Below are positions 1 through 9,186 of a DNA stretch of 42,399 nt, piece by piece. The number at the start of each line of letters is the position of its first letter. Position 1 is the stretch's first letter. The DNA comes from Gammaproteobacteria bacterium (GTDB taxonomy: Bacteria > Pseudomonadota > Gammaproteobacteria > PS1 > Pseudothioglobaceae). Under the pieces are notes generated by a model. It had not been told where the DNA came from, ran no database searches, and saw nothing but the letters and a program-made list of their open reading frames with translations. Location: the NCBI GenBank assembly GCA_030611725.1, contig JAUWPG010000003.1:1-42399 (forward strand), read 5' to 3'. Position numbers and translations under genes: made by a program.

Positions 1-447
1 GGCAACAACTTGCGGCCATACGCCCGGGGCAATACCGCGGGTACAAGGGCAGGGGGCAACAACGGGGGTCCAATGTCAGGTGGCAACAACATGGGTCCAT
101 TCAACGGTGGTTCTAACATGGGTCCTTTCCAGAGTGGCAACAATTGGATGAACAACACTGACTTAGGTTTAAAATTCGATACTAAGAACACAACTGACAC
201 TAACGCTTCTGGCGCTGCTGATGGTAACGCTTCTGGTGTTGCAGATGCTAACGCTAAAGGTGCTGCCGATGCTTTTGCTAAAGGCCAAGCTGATGGTTAC
301 GCTAAAGGTACTGCCGATGCTTTTGCTAAAGGCCAAGCCGATGGTTACGCCAAAGGTCAAGCCGATGGTTACTCTAAAGGTCAAGCTGATGCTTACGCTA
401 AAGGCTATGCAGATGGCAAGGCGAAAGACATTACTTCTAGCAAGTAA
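1..447 (+). CDS. Secreted low-complexity repeat protein, copy 1 (sulfur globule protein-like), 5' partial
   Basis: The reading frame is open at the left edge, so the signal peptide and true start lie outside the window; the TTG at 10 is only the first in-frame start-like codon. The visible part has two repeat blocks. Nonapeptides of the type GPFxGGxNM occupy 13-147; the first two (13-66) are degenerate, the last three good. A bridge of about 20 residues containing GLKFDTKN follows. Nine octapeptides of the type KGQADAYA then run from 208 to 423. There is no cysteine. It is a clear paralogue of the gene at 931. Gly/Asn/aromatic-rich exported proteins of this size coat sulfur globules in purple sulfur bacteria and relatives. 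I infer a similar structural role from composition only; no enzymatic motif is visible. Confidence 0.75.
   Translation, partial: GNNLRPYARGNTAGTRAGGNNGGPMSGGNNMGPFNGGSNMGPFQSGNNWMNNTDLGLKFDTKNTTDTNASGAADGNASGVADANAKGAADAFAKGQADGYAKGTADAFAKGQADGYAKGQADGYSKGQADAYAKGYADGKAKDITSSK
13..147 (+). repeat. Five 27-bp tandem units encoding GPF nonapeptides (copy 1)
   Basis: In-frame 9-codon units start at 13, 40, 67, 94 and 121. The last three read GPMSGGNNM, GPFNGGSNM and GPFQSGNNW. The first two (RPYARGNTA, GTRAGGNNG) keep the register but have lost the GPF core. Confidence 0.75.
208..423 (+). repeat. Nine 24-bp tandem units encoding KGQADAYA-type octapeptides (copy 1)
   Basis: Nine consecutive in-frame octads. 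Position 5 is always Asp, and positions 2, 4, 6 and 8 are Gly or Ala with one Ser exception. Lys occupies position 1 in the last seven units. Confidence 0.85.
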
Positions 448-464
448 GCTTATCTAGCGATATA

Positions 465-496
465 TAAAAAAGAGCGCATAGGCGCTCTTTTTTTTA
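465..496 (+). terminator. Rho-independent terminator after copy 1
   Basis: The stem AGAGCGC (471-477) pairs with GCGCTCT (482-488) across a 4-base loop. It is flanked by an A-run and followed by a T-run, and lies 24 bases past the stop codon. Confidence 0.88.
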
Positions 497-802
497 CCTT
501 CTACAAATTAAAATACCTATATAAGAATATATTGCCATTTTAAAAATAACCTAAATTTTCTATTGGGGTTATTTAATCTCTCTATCCTTCTAACATTTTA
601 ACCATTATCCAGCTAAAAACCTTATTTAGCTCCCCCAATACAATCCATAAAATTAAATAGAATCTATCGATTTTGGTCTAATTTTTTATGATATTTCAGG
701 CATTATCGTTGATAATTTAATATTTTTTTAATCATTGTTTCCTTTATTGGCAGGCTCTATAATGTTTTTATTTTAATTATTATTAAATATATTATAATAT
801 TA
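497..802. other. AT-rich intergenic stretch, no gene seen
   Basis: About 300 bases of very AT-rich DNA between the terminator of copy 1 and the promoter of copy 2. I see no plausible ORF, tRNA or strong hairpin. It separates the two paralogues into independent transcription units. Confidence 0.6.
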
Positions 803-830
803 TTGACTTCTAATATTCTTACTGTATAAT
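803..830 (+). promoter_or_regulatory. Sigma-70 type promoter for the copy 2 repeat protein
   Basis: The -35 box TTGACT (803-808) and a consensus -10 box TATAAT (825-830) are 16 bases apart. The predicted start near 837 gives a leader of about 94 nt before the AUG. The leader ends with a strong AGGAG (920-924). This suggests high expression. Confidence 0.7.
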
Positions 831-930
831 GCATCCCATCAGAGCAAATAAGTCTGGTGCTTGTAAAACTTAAAATGCCTCAATAATGTTGGTGTTAAGT
901 AAAAAAATATAATTAATCTAGGAGATTAAC

Positions 931-1392
931 ATGAAAAAAATTATCGCTATCGCTACTTTAGTAGCTGCTACATCAGCTTCAGCTGGTTTCTTTGGTAACA
1001 ACGGTTCTAACGACTTCGGTCCTTTTAACGGTTCTAACAACTGGGGCCCTTTCGGCTCAGGTTCTATCATGGGTCCATTCAACGGTGGTTCTAACATGGG
1101 TCCTTTTAATGGCGCTCAAAACTGGGGTCCTTTCCAGGGTGGCAACAAGTGGTTAAACAACACTGACTTCGGTTTAAAATTTGACACTAAGAACTCTACA
1201 GACACTAACGCTTCTGGCGCTGCTGACGGTAAAGCTACTGGTGTTGCTGATGCTAACGCTAAAGGTACTGCTGATGCATACGCTAAAGGTCAAGCTGATG
1301 CATTTGCTAAGGCACAAGCTGATGCTTACGCTAAAGGTTATGCAGACGCACAAGCTACAGGTATTGCAACTTCAACTGAAGTAGCTAAGTAA
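931..1392 (+). CDS. Secreted low-complexity repeat protein, copy 2 (sulfur globule protein-like)
   Basis: A 153-residue protein with AGGAG six bases before ATG. Residues 1-18 form a Sec signal peptide ending SASA, so the mature product has about 135 residues. Residues 30-74 are five nonapeptides with core GPFxGxxxW or GPFxGxxxM. Residues 75-94 are a bridge (GLKFDTKN). Residues 95-142 are six octapeptides of the type KGQADAYA, followed by a short polar tail. There is no cysteine and no known catalytic motif. The promoter and terminator are its own. Composition and export resemble sulfur globule envelope proteins; that is a family-level inference, and another surface or matrix protein is possible. 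Confidence 0.85.
   Translation: MKKIIAIATLVAATSASAGFFGNNGSNDFGPFNGSNNWGPFGSGSIMGPFNGGSNMGPFNGAQNWGPFQGGNKWLNNTDFGLKFDTKNSTDTNASGAADGKATGVADANAKGTADAYAKGQADAFAKAQADAYAKGYADAQATGIATSTEVAK
1018..1152 (+). repeat. Five 27-bp tandem units encoding GPF nonapeptides (copy 2)
   Basis: Five consecutive 9-residue units: GPFNGSNNW, GPFGSGSIM, GPFNGGSNM, GPFNGAQNW, GPFQGGNKW. The register is perfect, with G-P-F fixed and W or M at position 9 in all five. Confidence 0.85.
1213..1356 (+). repeat. Six 24-bp tandem units encoding KGQADAYA-type octapeptides (copy 2)
   Basis: The six units are SGAADGKA, TGVADANA, KGTADAYA, KGQADAFA, KAQADAYA and KGYADAQA. Asp at position 5 is invariant, and every even position is Gly or Ala. 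Confidence 0.85.
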
Positions 1393-1460: not shown

Positions 1461-1489
1461 AAAAACCACCTGAGAGGGTGGTTTTTTTT
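1461..1489 (+). terminator. Rho-independent terminator after copy 2
   Basis: The stem AACCACC pairs with GGTGGTT across the loop TGAGAG and is followed by eight T residues. It lies about 70 bases downstream of the stop codon at 1392. Confidence 0.88.
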
Positions 1490-1510
1490 CGTACAATAAA
1501 AATACAGAGT

Positions 1511-8511: not shown

Positions 8512-9186
8512 TTAAGACTTTTCAACTGAATCGTCTTCAGCCGTTTCATCACCTTCATCACCTTCATCACCTTCATCAACAATATCCTCTTCGACTTCTT
8601 CAGCCATAAGTTTCGGCTCCTGAACGGCAACAACACTTTGGTCGTGTGCTTCGATATCACCATGTGTGAGGGCAGTAATGGTAACGCCTTCAGGCATATT
8701 CAGACCAGTTAAACTGATATGGTCGCCAATAGCAAGGTCGCTGATATTAACTTCGATACCATTTGGCATGTCTGCTGGTAGACAAGAAACTTCAACGCTG
8801 GTAATAAATTGATTAAGGATGGCGCCAAGACGCATGGCCTCATTGTCTTTTTCACCAAGAAAGTTAAGTGGAATATTGGTGACAATAGCTTGTTTCATGT
8901 TAATACGTAATAGGTCGATGTGAGAAATCGTTTTTTTAGCTGGGTGACGCTGCAAGTCTTTAATAATGACAGGCTCAATTTTTTTATCAATCGCTAAATC
9001 TATAACGGAAGTAAAGGATACTTCGTTTTCTAGTAGATGCGTGATCTCATGTATGTTTAGTGAAATTGCACTAGGCTCTTTGCCTGCACCGTAAACGATA
9101 CCAGGTACTTTTTCTTCGCGACGCAGGCGGCGGCTCGCACCTTTGCCCTGGTCATTTCTTACTGTTGCATTAATTGTTATGCTCAT
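8512..9186 (-). CDS. rplY: 50S ribosomal protein L25, general stress (Ctc) form
   Basis: Binds 5S rRNA. I chose the ATG at 9186 (protein starts MSITINATVRND) because GGAGAG lies just upstream. An in-frame longer start at 9240 would add 18 unusual residues and run through a terminator-like hairpin. The resulting 224-residue protein is the two-domain form: an L25 domain (about 1-90, KGASRRLRREEKVPGIVYG) and a TL5-type C-terminal beta domain. The last 30 or so residues are very acidic and contain GDE repeats from a 9-bp DNA repeat. Confidence 0.94.
   Translation of the reverse strand: MSITINATVRNDQGKGASRRLRREEKVPGIVYGAGKEPSAISLNIHEITHLLENEVSFTSVIDLAIDKKIEPVIIKDLQRHPAKKTISHIDLLRINMKQAIVTNIPLNFLGEKDNEAMRLGAILNQFITSVEVSCLPADMPNGIEVNISDLAIGDHISLTGLNMPEGVTITALTHGDIEAHDQSVVAVQEPKLMAEEVEEDIVDEGDEGDEGDETAEDDSVEKS
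8546..8579 (-). repeat. 9-bp tandem repeat in the 3' end of rplY
   Basis: Three full copies and a partial fourth copy of TCATCACCT on the + strand. They encode the GDE GDE GDE acidic run on the - strand. The length is a multiple of three, so copy change would keep the frame. Confidence 0.85.

Follow-up and report, generated by a model that had tools for sequence, protein, structure and literature searches.

Mature sulfur globule proteins (Sgps) of Allochromatium vinosum contain no cysteine. Published Sgps are exported, repetitive proteins that lack marked domains and whose prolines recur at regular intervals (PMC10386293; PMC7356093). SgpA, SgpB and SgpC of A. vinosum are small periplasmic proteins of this kind, encoded as several paralogues per genome in an rDsr-bearing, sulfur-storing host (PMC10386293, PMC3368242), and SgpD has its own promoter and terminator, a Sec signal and repeats that are partly modelled as helices, with very high confidence (PMC10386293). 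In Beggiatoa leptomitoformis, disruption of ALG67575.1, a sulfur globule envelope protein with no marked domains, regular prolines and a cleavable N-terminal peptide, coincides with the loss of storage (PMC7356093). Candidatus Thioglobus autotrophicus EF1 forms periplasmic sulfur globules, seen by cryo-ET only when sulfur was supplied, and its authors report four putative sgp genes, given in the text without loci, and the detection of three Sgp proteins (PMC6509183; Shah et al. 2019).

The window (the whole stretch of 42,399 bases that was analysed) is the start of contig C3 (G000:C3:1-42399) of a 1.16-Mb genome in 81 contigs, and opens with two genes of a family that we call sgpL. The family is probably a Thioglobaceae-specific, two-block variant of the sulfur globule coat protein. 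Its members have the Sgp-type features of a Sec-type leader, regularly spaced prolines, no Pfam or NCBIfam domain and no cysteine. They share with SgpA-C a small size, predicted export to the periplasm, repeats, multiple paralogues and a host that bears rDsr and stores sulfur, but differ in that a repeat of period 9 is linked through a fixed bridge to one of period 8. The likeness to SgpD, drawn from its description, covers promoter, terminator, Sec signal and partly helical repeats, although the modelled helix of sgpL does not approach the confidence of those in SgpD. ALG67575.1 was also compared by description; whereas its disruption coincides with a storage phenotype, sgpL is known from sequence.

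Gene 2 (931-1392, + strand) is complete and encodes 153 residues. It begins with a Sec-type signal peptide (MKKIIAIATLVAATSASA; 931-984, + strand) for which we place cleavage after ASA, and full-length homologues carry leaders of the same MKK...ASA type, all as judged from sequence. Five degenerate, N/G-rich GPF nonapeptide-like units follow (1015-1153, + strand), with prolines spaced 9, 9, 9 and 9, then the bridge NNTDFGLKFDTKN (1156-1194, + strand), which resembles the motif GDTDFNMSF of canonical-like Sgps, and finally a block of about six DAYAKGQA-type octads (1201-1368, + strand). The same order, GPF nonapeptides, a GL(K)FDTKN bridge and KGQADAYA-like octads, occurs in both neighbouring same-strand ORFs, in agreement with a preliminary description of this DNA. 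That description called the tandem repeats perfect, which they are not: DNA copies are about 71-85% alike and no two of the protein units examined are identical. The periodicity is nonetheless significant, with self-matches of 49% at lag 9 in the N-terminal block and 62% at lag 8 in the C-terminal block; in 10,000 shuffles, no lag between 1 and 15 gave a value as high as either.

Gene 1 (1-447, + strand; GPM/GPF repeats, GLKFDTKN bridge and octads) is 5'-truncated by the contig edge. For this reason the window shows no signal peptide for gene 1, and the earlier assignment of one to both proteins stands, within the window, for gene 2 alone. The first bases, from 1 to ~65-72, look like the repeat in a noisy and GC-rich form, likely a corrupted copy produced by an assembly error at the contig edge; we therefore regard 'LRPYARGNTAGTRAGG' as untrustworthy and this region as unfit for sequence analysis. 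Contig C40 ends, downstream of icd, in the 5' half of an sgpL gene (leader plus GPM units), which overlaps the window at ~65-143 with about 76 of 79 bases identical in an alignment counted by eye. This half is probably the missing part of gene 1, and the overlap makes icd - sgpL1 - sgpL2 - (tsf, rpsB convergent) the likely gene order.

None of the Pfam and NCBIfam models used here covers or names either protein, and a literature search for the repeat sequence found nothing. We found sgpL in 28 of 36 Thioglobaceae genomes, the window's own included, and in none of 21 other genomes of the first survey. Across 369 genomes sampled class-wide from Gammaproteobacteria the sgpL profile matched Thioglobaceae members and, weakly, one further genome (G253), where the match is a different protein of canonical-like Sgp type. 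Related loci occur in records of SUP05, Ca. Thioglobus, the Bathymodiolus thiotrophic symbiont, Ca. Ruthia, Ca. Vesicomyosocius, Ca. Ruthturnera and Ca. Thiodubiliella, and it is from these names that we call the family Thioglobaceae. Carriers include intracellular clam symbionts and mussel symbionts as well as free-living cells. Finished genomes have two to five copies, which frequently stand in tandem next to icd or converge on tsf-rpsB, and a divergent member (MPWDNN type) is often the last of a tandem cluster; clam-symbiont genomes reduced to about 1.0 Mb retain two. Members are 140-203 residues long (an estimated 14-20 kDa or so), and cysteine is absent from all 77 of the 77 mature sequences. 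The GLKFDTKN bridge of the preliminary description is kept in one branch, with the consensus W(L/M)N(D/N)TDFG(L/M)(K/N)F(D/N)TKN, but is replaced by NDSDWGFHYNNKN in others.

The window's own genome also encodes an exported protein whose N-terminus is sgpL-like but whose C-terminus is free of repeats (C68:99865-100440; L082). Its apparent counterpart in EF1 (737928-738491; L205) lies beside an isolated sgpL gene at 737 kb.

The occurrence of sgpL follows that of dsrA, a gene of stored-sulfur oxidation. The two agree in 33 of 36 Thioglobaceae genomes (27 with both, two of which, the window's own and G013, were scored dsrA-positive from contig-edge fragments, and 6 with neither; P = 9e-5 with shared ancestry ignored), and the association may stem from a single gain or loss. 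Thus dsrA is present in 27 of the 28 sgpL carriers, and the dsrA-negative genera g3 and g9 are without sgpL. The three exceptions are a fragmented draft (G008) and two genomes of genus g6, both drafts of 86-87% completeness, which have dsrA and in which neither single-sequence nor profile searches found sgpL; genus g6 has at least one other Sgp-like protein. No sgpL carrier has a soxC match over the cut-off, and soxB is present in the window's own genome. A Sox system without SoxCD, as in the carriers, is the truncated type expected to deposit sulfur. Homologues are not restricted to organisms that store no sulfur, a distribution that the preliminary description had taken as counting against a coat: EF1 (G028), which has globules, carries five sgpL genes.

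Homology to canonical Sgps was judged on canonical-like proxies, in place of the A. vinosum sequences. A search outward from G253 recovered a large set of such proteins, whose profile matches 61 genomes besides the own genome, 53 of them dsrA-positive (P = 4.5e-23); from the character of the proteins and this association, we infer that the set consists of Sgps. When sgpL was aligned to it with hhalign, the signal peptide alone aligned. A motif matrix built from the canonical-like proteins, with a seed chosen after the resemblance had been noticed, picked the bridge in TDFG-type sgpL members (p 0.0025-0.0125 in most) and did not pick it in NDSDWG-type members. A profile of the mature region alone scored above composition-matched shuffles (p <= 0.05) in 73 of 77 sgpL members, which are not independent of one another, at low absolute scores. 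A search of plasmids with a canonical-like Sgp returned nothing. Taken as sequence comparisons, these results are only suggestive of homology, and we therefore propose that sgpL would work in the manner of an Sgp, without assigning it to that family.

Each gene has its own terminator-like structure, in line with the preliminary description: a hairpin with a T-run follows gene 1 at 463-496 (+ strand; inverted repeat 463-477/482-496) and gene 2 at 1461-1494 (+ strand). Upstream of gene 2 lies a promoter, TTGACT-N16-TATAAT (803-830, + strand; 11 of 12 matches), that an upstream alignment shows to be conserved in most of 11 orthologues. In the same alignment its -35 box is overlapped by an operator-like palindrome with the consensus ATATTAGAA-N10-TTCTAATAT, which is degenerate in a Vesicomyosocius copy. 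The window's version, ATATTATAA-N10-TTCTAATAT (789-816), has one mismatch to this consensus; with up to 3 mismatches allowed, the window contains no other site, where 0.03 would be expected. Exact copies in 25 Thioglobaceae genomes number 12. Ten of them precede sgpL by about 90-106 bp, another points off a contig edge and the last precedes an exported-protein gene. A reversed control pattern is rare in the same genomes. A regulator may act at this site. The idea that the palindrome marks a general sulfur regulon is unsupported, given where the exact copies sit. Measured against ribosomal genes, codon adaptation reaches 0.76 in each sgpL gene. Neighbouring housekeeping and metabolic genes score 0.63-0.71, and tsf, rpsB and rplY 0.70-0.75; the ribosomal-like usage of sgpL is consistent with high expression.

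Other occurrences of the palindrome are more varied. In G003 an exact copy precedes the gene for a Met-rich exported protein (L191:1473-1709, - strand). Copies with 1-2 mismatches away from sgpL lie near hemB, within a coding frame of the DUF2797-like/FKBP region and, in one case, close to a gene for flavocytochrome c sulfide dehydrogenase, these gene names having been read by eye from translations. A related AT-rich palindrome, ATATAAGAATATTATTATATTTTAATAT, with near copies, is conserved in seven genomes in the stretch that separates hemB from a gene without assigned function (L186 at G000:C50:6944-6971, L187, L188, L198, L201, L202 and L203).

AlphaFold models of the gene 2 product and a homologue with six octads had a mean pLDDT of 45 and a pTM of 0.16-0.17, and were set aside as evidence of fold. 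Beyond short segments, the octad block alone was helical, at a pLDDT of about 45-57, so that a helical octad block is weakly suggested by the models. Matches to the FliH and TolA models of NCBIfam were rejected as similarity between Ala/Lys/Asp-rich repeats, far under the cut-off, and the sole PDB match, to the Ala/Lys-rich tails of eL29 (E 0.02), was likewise rejected.

A protein that is confined to one family, found nearly always with genes for stored-sulfur oxidation, exported, built of repeats and free of cysteine most likely coats periplasmic sulfur. Sulfur globule coating was already the leading idea of the preliminary description; it is borne out in part, and is the best supported reading of a family that tracks dsrA, has no carrier with soxC over the cut-off and occurs in EF1. 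Sec would export the protein to the periplasm, where it would assemble on elemental sulfur from the Sox pathway without SoxCD; the coat would keep this sulfur as discrete globules, to be consumed later by the Dsr pathway. The N/G-rich GPF block, with its evenly spaced aromatic and proline residues, may be flexible, adsorb to hydrophobic sulfur and self-associate, and the charged, Ala-rich octad block may be helical, packing side by side or turned towards the periplasm. The dose of coat could come from the two to about five gene copies, whether tandem or dispersed. SUP05 bacteria, together with their relatives in bivalves, account for much marine sulfur oxidation, and a sulfur store allows them to operate across oxic-anoxic boundaries. 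If a coat candidate is specific to the family and has a promoter that can be recognised, metagenomes could be screened with it for sulfur storage, and the formation of a protein shell on elemental sulfur could be studied on a defined protein.

More tentatively, sgpL could represent a new architectural class of coat, in which a disordered, sulfur-adsorbing GPF-repeat block is fused to a helical octad block. Such a class would have arisen once in rDsr-bearing Thioglobaceae, would replace or work beside Sgps linked to metH, and would be regulated at the conserved ATATTAGAA-N10-TTCTAATAT operator by a repressor or activator of its own. We consider this bolder proposal possible but doubtful.

It is unlikely that N/P/W-rich proteins encoded beside metH are the true globule coat, with sgpL as an accessory periplasmic scaffold or second layer. 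EF1 does have four tandem genes for exported proteins of this type adjoining metH (13.0-14.8 kb; L206), and relatives occur both in the window's own genome (C10:6732-7112; L207) and in the dsrA-positive, sgpL-negative g6; scored with the canonical-like Sgp profile, however, EF1 sgpL reaches E 1.5e-5 against 0.14 for the metH-linked protein, with much of the score coming from the N-terminal part. The metH-linked cluster may be the published EF1 sgp set, but the four published genes fit either locus, because the metH cluster and the icd-region sgpL cluster of EF1 both have four genes. The cluster of small exported proteins is also present in G029 and G009. Its N/P/W-rich proteins carry a YNPYDYWDPRWYMEEM motif and form another candidate Sgp set.

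An exported, repetitive and probably abundant protein with a composition suited to a matrix could also belong to the extracellular matrix or outer surface, as an S-layer protein or adhesin unrelated to sulfur. We regard this as improbable, since sgpL tracks dsrA across genera and is kept in intracellular clam symbionts as well as in free-living cells. An S-layer role in particular is unlikely because it is assigned to a different protein: the EF1 paper attributes the SUP05 S-layer to a 34-kDa protein, reported as the most highly expressed and as present in all cultured Thioglobus strains, PS1 included (PMC6509183). Members of sgpL, at 140-203 residues, fall far below 34 kDa, and are absent from g9 and from g3, to which we assume PS1 belongs. 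Finally, although contigs break within the repeats and the first ~65-72 bases of the window resemble noise, it is hardly credible that these are artefacts of assembly, or low-complexity ORFs that slippage of the repeats keeps alive, without dedicated function, given orthologues in independent finished genomes, invariant residues, a conserved promoter, recurrent synteny with icd and tsf-rpsB, and ribosomal-like codon usage.

Coating of periplasmic sulfur thus remains our preferred reading of the sgpL genes. Elsewhere in the window, broken ORFs at ~1840-2400, with a radical-SAM-like SGGEPCLQ stretch and no Pfam match for the pieces, are probably the remains of a decayed gene. At 8545-8578 a perfect 9-base repeat, TTCATCACC, present in 3.8 copies, encodes the acidic tail (EGDEGDEGDE) of ribosomal protein L25 (rplY).
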